Source of the DNA: a bacterium
Lineage (GTDB): Bacteria > B130-G9
Direction of reading: 5' to 3'
DNA length: 38,837 nucleotides
NCBI GenBank assembly: GCA_035527515.1
Contig: DATLAJ010000023.1
Coordinates: forward strand, 1 to 38,837
Shown here: positions 17,424 through 25,968 of the stretch, one piece after another
Position numbering within the stretch: the stretch's first letter is position 1
Layout of the letters: every line of letters starts with the position of its first letter
Made by a program: the position numbers and the translations under genes
The notes under the pieces: model-generated
Databases searched by the model: none
Told to the model about the DNA's origin: nothing
What the model saw: the letters and a program-made list of their open reading frames with translations, nothing else

Positions 17424-18095
17424 GTGAATCCGGAGAAGCTAATATCCAGGCGGGCCGGGCAGATGGGGCTTCAGCTTGACGCTACCATGCTATCCAAGCT
17501 GGCCAAGTTTGTGGCGCTGGTGCTCAAATACAGACGAGGCGCCTCGTTGACTTCCCTCAAGAGCGCGTCGGCTATCATTGAGCAACTGTTGGTCGATTCG
17601 CTCGCAGTCTCCATGGTGGAGGGTGTCGATGAGGCGCGATGGTGTGCCGATATCGGTGCAGGAGGCGGATTCCCATCGGTTGCGGTGGCGATCGTCTTGC
17701 CTCGGACGGGTTGGGTGGCTGTCGATAGCTCGCCTAGCAAGGTAGCGTTTCTTAAGAAGATGAGCCGTGAGATAGGCCTCTCGAACTATAGCCCGGTCTG
17801 CGCCAGCTTCCTGGAGTTCGCATCATCCCGCGAGCCGTCAGGAGAGTTCGAGCTGGTGGTCATGAGAGGGCTGAAACTCAACAGAAGGCTCCTGCGAGCG
17901 GTCCGGAGTGTGCTCTCAGACTCCGGCCAGGTAGTTCTCTATCAGCACACGGAGCGATATTCTCAGCTCGACATTTACGGCCAGTTGGCCCACGGGGCGG
18001 CCCAGATGCGAGAGACCGTGCTCGAGGAGGGCGTTCGTTCGCTTCGTTTTGAATACCATCGTTTTGACGAGTTGGCTGAGCGATTGATTTGTTAG
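17424..18095 (+). CDS. rsmG: 16S rRNA (guanine-N7) methyltransferase RsmG
   Basis: RsmG (GidB) methylates G527 of 16S rRNA using S-adenosylmethionine. The 223-residue protein, of usual length, starts at a GTG. The SAM-binding glycine-rich loop is CADIGAGGGFPSVAVAI at about 73-89; LLVDSLA precedes it, where other members have HxxDSL. A Rossmann acidic end (VAVDSSPSKVAFLKK) follows. No good ribosome site lies before the GTG, in line with the predicted leaderless transcript. The order rsmG-parS-parA-parB is a conserved replication-origin-proximal arrangement in many bacteria. Frame and composition are normal throughout. Confidence 0.93.
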   Translation: MNPEKLISRRAGQMGLQLDATMLSKLAKFVALVLKYRRGASLTSLKSASAIIEQLLVDSLAVSMVEGVDEARWCADIGAGGGFPSVAVAIVLPRTGWVAVDSSPSKVAFLKKMSREIGLSNYSPVCASFLEFASSREPSGEFELVVMRGLKLNRRLLRAVRSVLSDSGQVVLYQHTERYSQLDIYGQLAHGAAQMRETVLEEGVRSLRFEYHRFDELAERLIC

Positions 18096-18124
18096 AGTTT
18101 TGGTGTTGTGATTCGCTATGTAGT

Positions 18125-18133
18125 TGTGGATAA
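18125..18133 (-). promoter_or_regulatory. Single consensus DnaA box
   Basis: On the minus strand the sequence is TTATCCACA, the consensus 9-mer bound by DnaA. It lies 30 bp after rsmG and about 190 bp before parA. Only one perfect box was found, so this is not by itself an origin, but the rsmG-parAB neighbourhood makes it worth noting. Confidence 0.4.
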
Positions 18134-18146
18134 ATGGTATGAGGGA

Positions 18147-18288
18147 GTCCGCAGATTACACAGATTGAACGGATTAGAGGCACAACCTAAGAAGCCATAA
18201 CAGGATGGCTTGCATTCAGAACACACGGCCCGGCTGTGCTTGCGAGCGACTCTTCCTTTAATCTGTGTAATCTGTGTAATCTGCGGAC
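18147..18288. mobile_element. 142-bp element with 20-bp perfect terminal inverted repeats
   Basis: GTCCGCAGATTACACAGATT at 18147-18166 and its exact reverse complement at 18269-18288 bound a non-coding 102-bp interior. Next to the right end the unit AATCTGTGT is repeated in tandem. The layout fits a small non-autonomous mobile or REP-type element between rsmG and parS. No target duplication was identified. Confidence 0.55.
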
Positions 18289-18310
18289 AGAGGTCTCTTA
18301 GCCAGTTGGG

Positions 18311-18336
18311 AGATATGTTTCACGTGAAACATATCT
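18311..18336. promoter_or_regulatory. parS: parS centromere site
   Basis: The core TGTTTCACGTGAAACA (18316-18331) is an exact match to the bacterial chromosomal parS consensus, the ParB nucleation site. Symmetry extends five bases on each side, giving a 26-bp perfect palindrome. It lies 17 bp before the parA start, so ParB loaded here may also influence parA transcription. Confidence 0.95.
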
Positions 18337-18352
18337 GCGCTATTGTTCGGGG

Positions 18353-19171
18353 ATGCGTGTGAGCAGAACAATTGCAATAGTCAATCAGAAGGGCGGCGTT
18401 GGTAAAACGACGACCGCTGTCAACTTCGCCACTGGCCTCGCTCTCGCTGAGCAGCAGACACTCCTTGTAGATATGGACCCCCAGGCAAACGCGACGATGA
18501 GCCTCGGCCTGACGCCTGCAAAGCTCGAGAGCACGGTCTTCGACGTTCTTCTAAAGCCCGAAGTCCTTCACAAGGCCATCTGCTCAACATCAGTCACAAA
18601 CCTCGCGGTCCTGCCCGCAAACACAGACCTCGTCTCCGCAGAAATCGAACTGGTCAACGATAAGAAGCGTGTGTTTAGGCTTAGGGAGGCTTTAGCAACT
18701 GCCCGCGAGCGGTTTTCATATATCATCATCGATTGCCCCCCGTCCCTCGGGATGCTCACCGTCAACGCCATCTGCGCATCCAGCAGCATCATCATTCCGC
18801 TACAGTGCGAATACTACTCGCTTGAGGGTCTGTCCAGGACGCTGGAGGCCGTCCGCATCTTTCGGGAGACGCTAGGCCTTGATATCGAGATAGCAGGGCT
18901 TCTGCTAACGATGTTCGATTCCAGGACTAATCTCTCTAGGGAGGTCGCCTCCGATGTCAGAAAACACTTCCCAGACAAGGTTTTCTCGACAGTGATCCCC
19001 CGGAACGTGCGTGTCGCCGAGGCGCCGGGTTACGGCAAGCCGGTCATGCTATATGATGTTGCGTCGCGAGGTTCGCAGGCGTTCTTAGAATTAACAGAGG
19101 AGTTTCTGACAAGTGAAGCAAGAAAAGCGGCTAGGTCGAGGGTTAGAGGCGATACTCGGCGAGTCGGGTAG
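18353..19171 (+). CDS. parA: Chromosome-partitioning ATPase ParA (Soj)
   Basis: ParA is the deviant-Walker ATPase that moves ParB-parS complexes along the nucleoid. The 272-residue protein has the Walker A loop KGGVGKTT at 13-20 with the signature lysine at 13, followed by LLVDMDPQANATMSLG and YIIIDCPPSLGMLT (Walker B). It is short at the N-terminus, like chromosomal Soj and unlike plasmid ParA with its HTH extension. The ATG at 18353 is close to a GGGG run; a GTG at 18359 is an alternative. The C-terminal 59 bases overlap parB. The parS site immediately upstream supports a chromosomal segregation role. Confidence 0.95.
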   Translation: MRVSRTIAIVNQKGGVGKTTTAVNFATGLALAEQQTLLVDMDPQANATMSLGLTPAKLESTVFDVLLKPEVLHKAICSTSVTNLAVLPANTDLVSAEIELVNDKKRVFRLREALATARERFSYIIIDCPPSLGMLTVNAICASSSIIIPLQCEYYSLEGLSRTLEAVRIFRETLGLDIEIAGLLLTMFDSRTNLSREVASDVRKHFPDKVFSTVIPRNVRVAEAPGYGKPVMLYDVASRGSQAFLELTEEFLTSEARKAARSRVRGDTRRVG

Positions 19172-19955
19172 AGAGGCGATGCGGCCTGGGCTCGTTGAGA
19201 TCGCTCTTGATTTGCTGACGCCAAACAGCCTGCAGCCGAGACAGCGTTTTGACAAGGAGAAGCTCGCGCACCTTGCGGAATCCATCAAGGCCAGAGGAGT
19301 CGTTCAGCCGATAGTTGTTCGGAGAACGGATGATGGGTATGAGATAGTAGTCGGCGAGCGGCGTTGGCGGGCAGCGCAGATGGCGGGGCTCTCCAGCATC
19401 CCTGCGATCGTAAAGGACTTGTCGCGCTCCGATATTCTGGCGACAGCGCTTGTCGAGAACATCCAGCGAGCTGACTTAAACGCTCTGGAGATCGCATTTG
19501 CGTTTGAGAAGCTACTGAACGAGGCGGGGCTTTCGCACGCGCAGATAGCAAAGATAGTGGGGATGAACAGGAGCTCCGTCACGAACTACCTGCGGCTTCT
19601 GTCATTGCCGGAGAGCATCAAGAGCGACCTTCTGGACAGTAAGGTCTCGATGGGGCACGCACGGGCGCTTCTTGCGGTCAGCGACAGCAGCACGCAGCGG
19701 GCGCTTGCGGACATGATAATCTCGCGGGGCCTTTCGGTTCGGCAGGCGGAGGCGATGGCGGGGCGGATGGCGGAGCGAAGGCCCAGTCGCGCGCGCGAGC
19801 AATTGCCTGAGCTGGCCGCGCTCGAGGAGCAGCTATGTGCCTCACTGGGCACGAAGGTTGTGATCAGAACTAGCAAGAAAGGCAGCGGTAAGATACTGAT
19901 CGAGTATTATTCGGGAGACGATCTCGAAAGGCTTTTGTCAATACTGAAGGGCTAA
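19113..19955 (+). CDS. parB: Chromosome-partitioning protein ParB (Spo0J)
   Basis: ParB binds parS, is a CTP-dependent clamp, and stimulates ParA. The 280-residue protein from a GTG start reads MKQEKRLGRGLEAILG, the usual ParB beginning. N-terminal CTPase-domain motifs are visible (VVGERRWRAAQMAG and LVENIQRADLNALE), followed by the HTH LSHAQIAKIVGMNRSSVTNY and a C-terminal dimerisation segment ending DDLERLLSILKG. GAGGAG lies ten bases before the GTG. It starts 59 bases inside parA, a long overlap but with both frames clearly coding, so the pair is translationally linked. The bactofilin gene follows after four bases. Confidence 0.95.
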   Translation: MKQEKRLGRGLEAILGESGREAMRPGLVEIALDLLTPNSLQPRQRFDKEKLAHLAESIKARGVVQPIVVRRTDDGYEIVVGERRWRAAQMAGLSSIPAIVKDLSRSDILATALVENIQRADLNALEIAFAFEKLLNEAGLSHAQIAKIVGMNRSSVTNYLRLLSLPESIKSDLLDSKVSMGHARALLAVSDSSTQRALADMIISRGLSVRQAEAMAGRMAERRPSRAREQLPELAALEEQLCASLGTKVVIRTSKKGSGKILIEYYSGDDLERLLSILKG

Positions 19956-19959
19956 CATC

Positions 19960-20358
19960 ATGGGCACAGGATCGAAAACGGAACTCAATGCTTACTTGGC
20001 CAAGGGCACGAACTTCAAGGGCGAGCTCCGCTTCTCCGGCATCGTGCGACTGGACGGGATATTCGATGGGACAATTATCTCCGATGGGACGCTCGTTGTG
20101 GGCGATACGGGCGTCTTGAAGGGCGAAATCAATGTTGGTGAGCTTCTTTCTAGCGGCATTGTAGAAGGCACAATCAAGGCGACAAAGGCCATCGATGTGA
20201 GTGGGCAAGGGAAACTCTTGGGCGAGGTATTCACGCCCTCGCTCAACGTGGCGCCCGGCGTGCTGGTTGAGGCGCAGCTTCGTGTCGGCACAGGCTCCGG
20301 GACGAGCTCTTCAAAAGGCTCGGTCGTTGGCTCCTCAAGGCCCAAAGATGACCGCTGA
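19960..20358 (+). CDS. Bactofilin (polymer-forming cytoskeletal protein)
   Basis: The 132-residue protein contains a bactofilin core at about residues 14-105, rich in regularly spaced G and V/I residues typical of a right-handed beta-helix (GELRFSGIVRLDGIFDGTI, GVLKGEINVGELLSSG, GTIKATKAIDV). The Ser/Gly-rich tail after residue 110 is disordered. Bactofilins form nucleotide-free membrane-associated filaments that place cell-wall or segregation proteins. In Myxococcus bactofilins scaffold ParB-parS and ParA-binding proteins, and the position here, four bases after parB, suggests a similar link (inference). The TGA overlaps the next ATG (TGATG). Confidence 0.9.
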   Translation: MGTGSKTELNAYLAKGTNFKGELRFSGIVRLDGIFDGTIISDGTLVVGDTGVLKGEINVGELLSSGIVEGTIKATKAIDVSGQGKLLGEVFTPSLNVAPGVLVEAQLRVGTGSGTSSSKGSVVGSSRPKDDR

Positions 20359-21867: not shown

Positions 21868-22002
21868 CTATTCTATGATTTTTATGCTTTCGCGGCGCAG
21901 GGCGAGCCGGTAGCCGACGCCATACTTGGCGACGAGGAGGTCCCTGACCTCTTGTTCAGAGATGGCCTGTGAGTGCCTCGCTGCCTCCGAATGCTCATGC
22001 CG
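21868..22002 (-). pseudogene. Remnant of a second copy of the helicase winged-helix C-terminus
   Basis: Read on the minus strand, the segment encodes AISEQEVRDLLVAKYGVGYR and then ends KIIE with a TAG at 21870-21868. This aligns with the last ~40 residues of the helicase gene at 22713 (AISEQEVKDLLVAKYGVGYR...QIIE). At the DNA level 21899-21966 and 22744-22811 match at 66 of 68 bases. Upstream the frame is blocked by a TAG at 22005-22003 and no further similarity continues, so only the 3' end is left. The remnant and the intact gene flank the brnTA pair. Confidence 0.8.
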
Positions 22003-22154: not shown

Positions 22155-22415
22155 ATGGAATTGGAATTCGACCCAGTCAAGAGCGATAGCAACCAGAAGA
22201 AACATGGGATCGACTTCTACGAAGCCCGGTCCCTTTGGGATGACACTGATTTAATTGAGGTTCCTATAAAAACGAGCGACGAGGCAAGTTGCTTGGTGAT
22301 CGGGAAGATTCTAGGAAGGCACTGGTCAGGAATTATTACGTATAGGGGCGAGAAGACGAGGATTATTTCCGTGCGATGTTCTCGGAAGGAGGAGGTTGAT
22401 CTTTATGAAAGCTGA
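22155..22415 (+). CDS. brnT: BrnT-family ribonuclease toxin
   Basis: The 86-residue protein begins MELEFDPVKSDSNQKKHGID, the signature of BrnT (F-D-P-x-K...N..KHGI), followed by FYEARSLWDD. It also contains WSGIITYRGEKTRIISVRCS, matching the R-I-I-S-x-R strand typical of the family. BrnT has a RelE-like fold and cleaves RNA, arresting growth unless bound by BrnA. Length is typical. Its end overlaps the antitoxin start by 11 bases, and the antitoxin ribosome site (GGAGG) lies within it. Toxin-first order is the BrnTA norm. The pair is inserted between duplicated helicase gene ends. Confidence 0.88.
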   Translation: MELEFDPVKSDSNQKKHGIDFYEARSLWDDTDLIEVPIKTSDEASCLVIGKILGRHWSGIITYRGEKTRIISVRCSRKEEVDLYES

Positions 22416-22629
22416 TGAACTTGATAAGCGATTTGATGAAGGCAAGGATGTTTCTGAATACCTCGATTTGTCAAAAGCGAGGAGACCTGGACAAGAACAG
22501 AAAAGGGTAAATGTCGATTTCCCTATATGGATGATCCGCCTATTGGATAAGGAGGCAAAGCGTCTGGGTGTGACTCGACAATCAGTCATCAAGATCTGGT
22601 TAGCGGAGCGATTAGAAAAGGCGATTTAG
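22405..22629 (+). CDS. brnA: BrnA/CopG-type antitoxin
   Basis: The 74-residue protein starts at the ATG at 22405, with GGAGG nine bases upstream; an upstream TTG at 22396 would abut that site and is rejected. MKADELDKRFDEGKDVSEYL is an acidic, helical N-terminus likely to neutralise the toxin. VNVDFPIWMIRLLDKEAKRLGVTRQSVIKIWL has the ribbon-helix-helix layout (beta strand V-N-V-D-F-P, then two helices) of CopG/BrnA antitoxins, and would bind the inverted repeat upstream of brnT. It is coupled to brnT by an 11-base overlap. Confidence 0.85.
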   Translation: MKADELDKRFDEGKDVSEYLDLSKARRPGQEQKRVNVDFPIWMIRLLDKEAKRLGVTRQSVIKIWLAERLEKAI

Positions 22630-22712: not shown

Positions 22713-25427
22713 TTATTCAATGATTTGTATGTTCTCCTGCGGGAGGGCGAGCCGGTAGCCGACTCCATACTTGGCGACGAGGAGGTCCTTGACCTCTTGT
22801 TCAGAGATGGCTGTTGAGCGTTTCGCAGCTTCCACGAAGGCTTTCTTCAGCCTCGTCTTGTGGTCGCTGATCTGCTTCTCGTAGGGATAGGAATCGGGGT
22901 GGCTCTGTCCCCAGAGCGCCTGGTATATGATCTCCTTGTGGACGAAATTGGGCGCGTGTCTTGCGAGCACCAGAAGGAGATTGAAGCACTTGCGCGTAAG
23001 CGTTATCTCGGTGCCCCTGAAGGTTACGGACAGGTTCCGGGTATCGATGATCAGACCGTGCGTGCTCGCCCGGCGCATCTGATCGCTCGAGGCAGCCACG
23101 CGGGGACGTTCAACGGACGATGCGGAGCCTTTCGTGGCAGGTTTCGGCGACTTCAGGTGCAGCGCTGAGGCGAGGTTTTTGGCCGTGTGATGCCCGATTA
23201 GCTCCGATAGCCGCTCGAACGACGCTGCCCTGATTTTTTGGACTGACGTTATGCCGCCGTCAACGAGCTTTCTGGCAATGGCACGCGTGCAATGAGCCGT
23301 GATATGTTCATAAAGTGGTATTGCGTCGTCGAGGAGCCCAAACTTAAGCCGCTTGGCCAGCGAAGAGAAGTCCTCGAGGGCCGTGGCCGGCCAGTTAAGA
23401 AGCCTGCATATTCCAAGCAGCGATTCGCAGAGCCAGGCGTCGGTCTCGCCCACATTTTGGACCAACCCTGGCCACGCCTGGTAGAACTTCTGCTCGATCT
23501 CGCCGAGTGGGACCTCGCTGATCCAGTCCAGCAAGATGAGTGCTCGTTTGATGGCTCGCGTTTGCTCGAAGGATGGCCTCTTCTCTTGGTCGATGAGCTT
23601 GCCGACGATGGGTCTTTCAAGGACGCCTTCGAGGGTTGCGGCATCTCTCAACCAGTGCAGGTAGCGGTCATCTTGCCATTCGGAGCGGGCGAGCGGGACG
23701 TGAACGGACTGTGCGTCCTTTGTCTGAGCAAGAAGAAGGAGTGCCTCAAGTGGGGACAGTTTTGAGCCTCGGTTCTTACTAGCCCATTCTGAGAGCGTGG
23801 CCCCGGTCTCGGCGAGGATGCACGACTTGGCGACGAGGTGGCCGAGCTCCGATGCGGCGAGAGAGCCGCGGTCGGCCTGGGTCAGCAGTCGATTTGCCAG
23901 CAGGCACTCTAGGGAGTCGTGGAGGACGTTTTGGAATCTGTTCCTGGCTGCATGCGGCGTTGGCGTCTGTTCCTTTGCCCAGAGATTCCGACCCGTGAAC
24001 GTCTTTAGCAGAAACTCAACCAGCTCCTGCTCAGTGCCGGCGATGTGCGAGGCGCAGAGGTTCAGGACGATGTCCTCAAGCGGCATCTTGGCGAGAGTCG
24101 GCGTTGCCTCCTCAAAGCCGCCGTTGATGTAGATGTCCTTTAGCCTCTTCTCCTCGAATTCCGACGAAGTGATCAGGATGGACCGCCCAAAGTCAGGCTC
24201 AAGCGAGAGCCTGCCGGCCCGGCCGCCGAGGTTCTCGTATTCGCCCTTGCTGATATCGATGAGGTGCATTTGCTGGAACTCTTTGGAGAACTGCCAGCGC
24301 TTGTGGTCGATTATGACGTTCTTGGCGGGAAGGTTGATGCCCATGCCGAGGGTTGTTGTGGAGAAAATCGCCCTGATCTCGCCTCTTCTGAAGCCGTTCT
24401 CAATTGCCCGCCGCTGGGCGTAGCCCAAGTCCGCGTTGTGGAAGGCCACGCCGCTTGATAGAAGCGAGGTAAGCACTTCCGTCGAGGGCGAGGCCTCCGC
24501 AAGGTCCACAAGCTCGGCAAGCGCTGCCTCGGCAGGCGGCAGCATGGTGTGTTTGGCAAACATCCTGGCCATTTCTACGGTGCTGGTCTTGTCCCGCAAG
24601 AAGACGATGCACTGCTCATCGCGGCCGACAAGCTGCTCAACGAGGCTGAGTGCAGCATGCCCCATCGACCCGGAGAAGGTGACCTCGAAGCGCTCCTGTC
24701 CCTGAGTGCCCGCGTTGTGCAACACGTAGTAGAACGTGCCGTTGCAGAAGACGCCCTTGCGCAGCTCCACCGGGCGCATGTTATCCTGAAGCAGCCTCGC
24801 CCCGATCCAGTCGCGTATGCTCTCCGACTTCGCGAGAACCGCCGACAGCCCGATGATCTGCGTCCTCTTCGCGAACGCCAACACCTTTGACAGGAGAAGC
24901 TCGAGCCGCGGCCCGCGCGATGCGTCCGTCAACATCTGCATCTCATCGATGATGATAACGCCAATGTCAGCAAGCAGCGTCGGCTTCGAGATCAGAAGTG
25001 AGTCCATCTTCTCAAAGACAATGATCGCGATGTCGAAATCGCCCCTCTCGATCGCCCGGTCGTGCTCCTTTCTGTCGCGCGATGACACGGCGATCTTGAG
25101 GCCCAAGGCGCTGTAACGCTTGTGGAATTGCTCGAATTTCTCCTCGGCGAGGGACTTGAGCGGCAGGAGGTAGAAGGCTCGTCTGTTCTTTCTTGCGGCC
25201 GCCACCGCTGCCATCTCTCCGACGAACGTCTTGCCGGACGACGTGGGCGCAAAGATGAGCAAGTTCTGGCCAGAAAACAGGTCGAATTCGGCAACCGCTC
25301 GCGACTGAATCGGCAGCAGCCGCGGGAACGCCTCGCGCCACACTTTCAGGACTGCGTCATCCACTCCGTAGGCGGACAGCAAGGAAGTGTCTATCCCCGA
25401 CAGGCTGCCGGGCGAGCTATTTCCCAT
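22713..25427 (-). CDS. Ski2-like superfamily 2 helicase fused to an OmpR/PhoB-type winged helix
   Basis: The 904-residue protein has a helicase core with Walker A APTSSGKT (60-67), IIIDEMQML (DExQ box at 161-164), GLSA (motif III), TTTLGMGINLPA (motif V, ~357-368) and GGRAGR (motif VI, ~401-406), as in Ski2/Hel308 helicases. A degraded-winged-helix and helical region follows, with an HhH-like stretch (VDGGITSVQKIRAASFERL, near 735-770). After a polar linker, residues ~797-895 form an OmpR/PhoB-type winged helix: LSVTFRGTEITLTRKCFNLL, KEIIYQALWG and AKYGVGYRL. No receiver domain is present. The ATP-driven helicase may be directed to DNA by the winged helix (inference). The function is unknown: repair, regulation or defence are open. 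A truncated second copy of its 3' end lies at 21868. Confidence 0.85.
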   Translation of the reverse strand: MGNSSPGSLSGIDTSLLSAYGVDDAVLKVWREAFPRLLPIQSRAVAEFDLFSGQNLLIFAPTSSGKTFVGEMAAVAAARKNRRAFYLLPLKSLAEEKFEQFHKRYSALGLKIAVSSRDRKEHDRAIERGDFDIAIIVFEKMDSLLISKPTLLADIGVIIIDEMQMLTDASRGPRLELLLSKVLAFAKRTQIIGLSAVLAKSESIRDWIGARLLQDNMRPVELRKGVFCNGTFYYVLHNAGTQGQERFEVTFSGSMGHAALSLVEQLVGRDEQCIVFLRDKTSTVEMARMFAKHTMLPPAEAALAELVDLAEASPSTEVLTSLLSSGVAFHNADLGYAQRRAIENGFRRGEIRAIFSTTTLGMGINLPAKNVIIDHKRWQFSKEFQQMHLIDISKGEYENLGGRAGRLSLEPDFGRSILITSSEFEEKRLKDIYINGGFEEATPTLAKMPLEDIVLNLCASHIAGTEQELVEFLLKTFTGRNLWAKEQTPTPHAARNRFQNVLHDSLECLLANRLLTQADRGSLAASELGHLVAKSCILAETGATLSEWASKNRGSKLSPLEALLLLAQTKDAQSVHVPLARSEWQDDRYLHWLRDAATLEGVLERPIVGKLIDQEKRPSFEQTRAIKRALILLDWISEVPLGEIEQKFYQAWPGLVQNVGETDAWLCESLLGICRLLNWPATALEDFSSLAKRLKFGLLDDAIPLYEHITAHCTRAIARKLVDGGITSVQKIRAASFERLSELIGHHTAKNLASALHLKSPKPATKGSASSVERPRVAASSDQMRRASTHGLIIDTRNLSVTFRGTEITLTRKCFNLLLVLARHAPNFVHKEIIYQALWGQSHPDSYPYEKQISDHKTRLKKAFVEAAKRSTAISEQEVKDLLVAKYGVGYRLALPQENIQIIE

Positions 25428-25503
25428 GTCGCCCGTCTTGTTTCACATCATTGGAAGCATGAATTATGAACGCAACTGTCCACAGATGAGGTTGAATTGA
25501 CGT

Positions 25504-25580
25504 TGTAGGGGCGGTTCACGAACCGCCCAAAAAGAATGTAAATCAAAACATAGAAGGGCGCTTCGTGAAGCGCCCCTACA
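25504..25580. repeat. REP/BIME-like element, copy 3
   Basis: Two strong hairpins, TGTAGGGGCGGTTCACGAAC followed by CGCCC (25504-25528) and GGGCGCTTCGTGAAGCGCCC plus CTACA (25556-25580), are separated by a 27-bp AT-rich linker. Outer ends TGTAGGGGC and GCCCCTACA are inverted. It lies in the 541-bp gene-free stretch 25428-25968 between helicase and lptD; the remainder of that stretch shows no supported gene. Confidence 0.8.
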
Positions 25581-25968
25581 AACCGCGATGTCTGCATGTG
25601 AGCTGCCATGTATCTATCAGCGATGTAAAGCTGCAACAGGGTTCATCCAAACATTTCGTGGACGAGGCCACTCGCTCTCTTCTGCCTCCACGCCTCCGCC
25701 CTTCTGGGCAATCGTCCGACACCATAGGCTTTGGCCGACGGCTGTCTGCTTAATCTGCGGATAACTAGAAGGTGGAGCATCACGGCTGTCAAGCGACAAT
25801 CAATTGAGAAGGAGCTCGCCGAGGCAGAAACGATGAAGGGTTACGTTAAGAAGGCCGTGGAGATACTGGCCACGGCAGATCAGAACACGCTGAAGGGACG
25901 GGATGATCGCGGCTACGGATCGCGATGTCTGCTGGGCGGACGTGTAATCGCCTCGTGGCGGCTGGGCG

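Follow-up and report, generated by a model that had tools for sequence, protein, structure and literature searches.

The gene on the reverse strand at positions 22713-25427 of the window, the whole 38,837-nucleotide stretch of bacterial DNA that was analysed, encodes a protein of 904 amino acids that is probably a chromosomal genome-maintenance helicase of Hel308/PolQ-like build, in which a tethered OmpR/PhoB-type winged helix (wHTH) would hold on to duplex DNA close to where the motor acts. The reading frame begins at an ATG, ends at a stop codon after residue 904 and is defined by the ORF call, Pfam and a structure model. The role in genome maintenance is favoured because the fold and the domain order match those of Hel308 across the whole core, and because the gene has the distribution of a core gene, forms one group per phylum and retains a conserved wHTH. 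It is weakened by a motif IVa and a box II that differ from those of Hel308, and by relatives that are located in defence islands or fused to a caspase. The analysis establishes how the protein is built from its domains and which fold is predicted for it, together with its conservation, distribution and phylogeny.

In the structure model, a complete Hel308-type SF2 core is followed by a linker and a true OmpR/PhoB-type wHTH; all of these parts are encoded on the reverse strand. The first motor domain, RecA1 (residues 35-215, positions 24783-25325), is recognised by alignment and by the Pfam DEAD profile (9e-25) and contains the Walker A motif APTSSGKT and the DEMQ box, while RecA2 (residues 216-425, positions 24153-24782) is recognised by Helicase_C (7e-9) and by its fold match to Hel308. 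Motif IVa, FHNADL (residues 329-334, positions 24426-24443), is placed within RecA2 by alignment. The full SF2 motif set listed in the preliminary description, which also includes GMGINLPA and GGRAGR, is present and its positions align across 23 homologues. The internal winged-helix domain 3 of the Hel308 ring (residues 426-540, positions 23808-24152, with approximate boundaries) is seen in the structure model and in the fold match, and the ratchet domain 4 (residues 541-697, positions 23337-23807) matches Helicase_dom4_arc (“archaeal helicase domain 4”, 2e-12) and aligns with the ratchet of Hel308, with W635, E645, G654 and W665 invariant in the alignment of 23 proteins. For the HhH domain 5 (residues 698-757, positions 23157-23336), the HHH_5 profile stays below its cut-off (6e-5, 23.8 bits against 27), yet the structure model and the alignment with domain 5 of Hel308 agree with the HhH-like stretch noted earlier. 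The AlphaFold model of the whole protein, built with 23 family sequences, has a pLDDT of 87, and a linker of low identity (residues 758-790, positions 23058-23156) is disordered, with pLDDT below 50 at residues 761-789.

The C-terminal domain (residues 791-904, positions 22716-23057) is identified as an OmpR/PhoB-type winged helix by profile, model, fold search and conservation. Trans_reg_C matches residues 805-873 (9e-7) with 29.3 bits, above the curated cut-off of 26.2. Folded alone by AlphaFold, the domain reaches a pLDDT of 88 and a pTM of 0.82 and consists of three strands, three helices, a short fourth helix and a two-strand wing. All of the best 50 PDB fold matches listed are OmpR/PhoB-type regulators, including the PhoB-DNA and GlnR-DNA complexes, and the tail shares its fold, its Trans_reg_C profile and its wing signature with the effector domains of such regulators (1gxp, 8hml, ArlR). 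The window protein differs from these regulators by the flexible linker that joins its wHTH to a helicase and by the lack of a receiver, as no receiver domain is found in it by Pfam scan; a two-component regulator is thereby ruled out. The matches of both core and tail in AlphaFold and Foldseek show that the preliminary description was correct in reporting a helicase fused to an OmpR/PhoB-type wHTH without a receiver domain. This architecture is not peculiar to the window genome and is the rule across a widespread bacterial family.

The preliminary description had called the helicase Ski2-like, which holds at the level of the superfamily and can be narrowed to Hel308/PolQ-like by the best sequence and fold matches. 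The window protein resembles archaeal Hel308/Hjm and metazoan HELQ (2p6r, 2zj8, 2va8) in fold and in the order RecA1, RecA2, winged helix, ratchet and HhH. Foldseek ranks Hel308 crystal structures first for the whole-protein model (24-28% identity across the complete core, with TM scores of 0.84-0.90 by target), followed by PolQ and then Brr2, and the best PDB sequence matches are archaeal Hel308/Hjm (7e-73), again followed by PolQ. Archaeal Hel308-type helicases are also the best NCBIfam models; they span residues 22-773 and score far below their equivalog cut-offs (NF040935, 254 against 1200 bits; PRK02362, the best, 360 against 887 bits). The helicase domain of polymerase theta has the same fold as the window core (TM about 0.76 by target), but the window protein is bacterial and lacks the polymerase domain, and motif IVa of PolQ is FHHAGL.

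Several features set the family apart from Hel308/HELQ: it is bacterial, has the extra C-terminal OmpR-type wHTH, forms a separate clade and mostly has DExQ instead of DExH in box II. Motif IVa is mostly FHNADL in the family, and D333 does not vary among the 23 aligned proteins, whereas all Hel308 and PolQ sequences compared have FHHAGL or YHHAGL. As motif IVa switches archaeal Hel308 between unwinding and annealing (PMC10484726), this change may matter biochemically. Both trees, one made with IQ-TREE and one of 80 sequences, place the family as a separate clade beside Hel308, PolQ and DpdF, although the basal support is weak (UFBoot 42-61), and the family is therefore not filed as Hel308. Judged from these sequences, it is probably a bacterial clade of Hel308 build that is sister to Hel308. 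Hel308 has been reported as absent from bacteria (PMC12278908), and a literature search, incomplete in its coverage, found no described bacterial Hel308 family; an earlier description elsewhere is possible.

Pfam, NCBIfam and PADLOC contain no curated model that matches the family. Each of the four species sampled from the window's phylum has it; the phylum is identified as Coatesbacteria by a contig scan, which detected a truncated copy with 91% identity in a Candidatus Coatesbacteria record. Among the 386 genomes sampled, 20 of the 382 outside this phylum (about 5%) contain the family at E <= 1e-30. When the family profile was used as the query, 57 of 68 genomes of a second phylum, here called phylum A, proved to have the gene (35 of the 38 near-complete ones), as did 25 of 40 genomes of a third (phylum B) and two of seven genomes of a fourth further phylum; a single-protein search detected it in four of seven genomes of phylum C, the nearest other phylum. 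In the tree of 80 sequences, phyla A, B and C and Coatesbacteria are each monophyletic (30/30, 18/18, 3/3 and 3/3). Monophyly within each phylum combined with high occurrence is the pattern of a core gene and not the patchy pattern of a defence gene, and the gene is apparently inherited vertically, at least in phylum A and Coatesbacteria. A phage origin was considered and rejected, as only weak phage matches turned up (none above 49% coverage or 30% identity), most of them to archaeal lipothrixvirus helicases, and the viral fold library gave nothing closer.

The wHTH belongs to what is conserved. Within phylum A its mean identity is 58%, comparable to that of domains 3 and 4 (57% and 53%), while the linker falls to 17%, which shows that the wHTH is under purifying selection. 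An OmpR-like C-terminal tail is seen in 20 of the 23 aligned proteins, some of which are incomplete at contig ends, and single-sequence Pfam scans detect Trans_reg_C in 11 of the 23. Two sequence types of wHTH can be read by eye: type A is window-like, and the profile of type B also picks up OmpR-type domains, for example that of ArlR (6e-5). In one lineage (L059, L060 and L062) the wHTH is replaced by an unrelated tail, without a Pfam match in L059, the only one scanned.

The proposed mechanism draws on analogy with Hel308 for the DNA (rather than RNA) substrate, the polarity and the role in repair. The RecA pair, the ratchet helix and the HhH domain would bring the protein onto single-stranded DNA where forks have stalled, at gaps or at recombination intermediates, and the loaded motor would unwind or remodel these structures, probably in the 3' to 5' direction as in Hel308. 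The flexibly tethered OmpR-type wHTH would act as a second module whose presumed target is duplex DNA, recruiting the motor to the duplex beside the junction or keeping it there, and it may also permit autoregulation. Targeting of DNA by the tail, as suggested in the preliminary description, is plausible.

The main alternative is that the protein is a defence sensor, in which the helicase would sense damaged DNA or phage DNA and set off an effector, similar to HamB in Hachiman. HamB has been compared functionally to Hel308 (PMC12278908), shares an SF2 Ski2-like motor with the window protein, and its models match the window motor. The best of these models covers only residues 51-426, however, so that a full-length HamB including its N-terminal helical bundle is not found, and HamB-like proteins fall outside the family in the IQ-TREE tree (UFBoot 99). 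HamA (DUF1837, PF08878) has no match anywhere in the four genomes of the window's phylum, the window's own genome included. Hachiman can be discarded on these grounds, in line with the preliminary description, which saw no adjacent HamA-type partner and no obvious known system, and no effector is fused or adjacent to the helicase within the window. Type-2 BREX offers another comparison, as its BrxHI is reported to combine a Ski2-like helicase with a wHTH behind it (PMC12839542); in the window protein, models of BrxHI match the motor alone (residues 34-291, 3e-21), while the whole-length match is to Hel308, and no BREX genes were recognised among the scanned neighbours of the window gene.

Relatives of the family do bring the motor close to defence. 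Five plasmid relatives (L042-L046, from Rhizobium, Fibrella, Bradyrhizobium, Hymenobacter and Manganitrophus) have the FHN-type motor of the family, no wHTH and a related N-terminal extension, in which a Peptidase_C14 caspase domain is found in L043 and L045, the two scanned by Pfam (3e-19 and 1e-8); the others start similarly by eye. Two of these caspase-helicase fusions are located near pAgo, restriction-modification or SAVED genes. The fusions are a candidate single-protein defence system in their own right, of which a literature search, incomplete in its coverage, found no description. One family member is found beside a DruE-like gene, and another adjoins a complete hamAB pair, in a stretch (L055, 7625-19000) that also contains a HEC-05-like gene, a pAgo fragment and a serine recombinase. 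The caspase fusions show that the motor lineage has been recruited into defence-like proteins, and the window gene, in which the Pfam scan finds no Peptidase_C14 domain, lies outside the caspase branch. When the neighbours of the homologues were tabulated (clustered in 30 loci, with short flanks in 34), no recurrent partner gene common to the family emerged, and the defence link is confined to side branches, namely the caspase fusions and the one copy beside Hachiman. As two phyla have the gene almost universally and apparently by vertical inheritance, and its flanks are mostly housekeeping genes, the defence role considered in the preliminary description is unsupported for the window member, and we regard it as unlikely.

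It is quite unlikely that the protein is a transcription factor equipped with a motor, in which the wHTH would bind specific promoters and the helicase would remodel DNA or evict polymerase there, a reading that includes the regulator role raised in the preliminary description. The intact and conserved OmpR-type wHTH is consistent with it, as are two 9-bp GACAGCCGT direct repeats on the reverse strand upstream of the helicase (25738-25746 and 25782-25790, 44 bp apart), which are part of a block that is also conserved in the sister species and may form an operator or autoregulatory site. Against promoter specificity, the recognition helix is no more conserved than the wHTH as a whole (mean identity 53% versus 58% within phylum A), the protein has neither a receiver nor a sensor domain, and the family contains two wHTH types and a lineage in which the domain was replaced. 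wHTH domains have often been co-opted to contact proteins, and the analysis could predict no specific DNA target for this one; a role in protein interaction or dimerisation only is nevertheless very unlikely, given a recognition helix with seven K/R versus three D/E and the retained OmpR wing signature GVGYRL. The Ski2-like superfamily contains many RNA helicases, several of which appear among the weaker PDB sequence and fold matches, but an RNA helicase of the Ski2/Mtr4 type, to which the wHTH would add RNA or protein binding, is highly improbable, as the DNA helicases Hel308 and PolQ match best along the full length, ratchet and HhH included, and the Mtr4/Ski2-specific DSHCT domain matches in only one of 23 members (E 0.046).

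The surroundings of the gene vary within Coatesbacteria. The helicase follows lptD and accD in the genus of the window and its sister species (G001), and an acyl-CoA dehydrogenase gene in two other genera (G002 and G003), with more beta-oxidation-type genes beyond; a DUF4282 gene is found on its 3' side in G000 and G003. A palindromic REP-like element (25503-25581) between lptD and the helicase is missing from the sister species. At 17424-20355, 2-8 kb from the helicase, rsmG-like, parA, parB and bactofilin genes stand in a row, an arrangement characteristic of the vicinity of the replication origin. In phylum C, a lexA-type repressor gene directly precedes the helicase in all three members with upstream sequence (L050, L051 and L103, from three genera). 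Two of these repressors are confirmed by Pfam, and the sequences have the Ala-Gly cleavage site, the SM serine and the VKRF lysine. This neighbour hints that expression of the helicase may be damage-inducible in phylum C. A large serine recombinase gene lies a few kb upstream of the lexA-linked copies and two of the three genomes have further strong LexA copies, so the lexA-helicase operon may be mobile. A LexA box upstream of the Coatesbacteria helicase was sought by eye, comparing the promoters of lexA and of the helicase in G001 and G003, with nothing convincing found, and no strong LexA match was detected in G000 or G002.

The toxin-antitoxin pair reported nearby is BrnT/BrnA, two bystander genes in tandem on the forward strand (BrnT toxin, 22155-22415, PF04365, 2e-20; BrnA antitoxin, 22396-22629, NF047399, 4e-38). 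The supposed remnant of a second helicase copy is real but limited to a 120-bp duplication of the 3' end, displaced beyond BrnTA on the reverse strand (21869-21988) and corresponding to residues 866-904. It shares 84% identity with the final 120 bp of the gene (22714-22833), and the two direct copies bracket BrnTA. In G003, about 140 bp without toxin-antitoxin genes separate DUF4282 from the helicase stop. Our interpretation is that a segment with BrnTA on it inserted at the 3' end of the helicase and supplied a replacement end.

Taken together, these findings lead to a wider reading, held tentatively and with slightly less than even confidence, in which several bacterial phyla would have a fork-repair core gene of Hel308/PolQ type steered by a tethered OmpR-type wHTH, and this bacterial branch would also have been recruited into caspase-armed defence by loss of the wHTH and gain of an N-terminal protease. 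If true, this would contradict the published absence of Hel308 from bacteria. A near-universal clade in poorly studied phyla provides a bacterial setting for testing Hel308/PolQ-type repair, and it raises the question of how a domain type that binds promoters came to serve a repair motor, while the caspase-fused relatives connect genome maintenance with defence.
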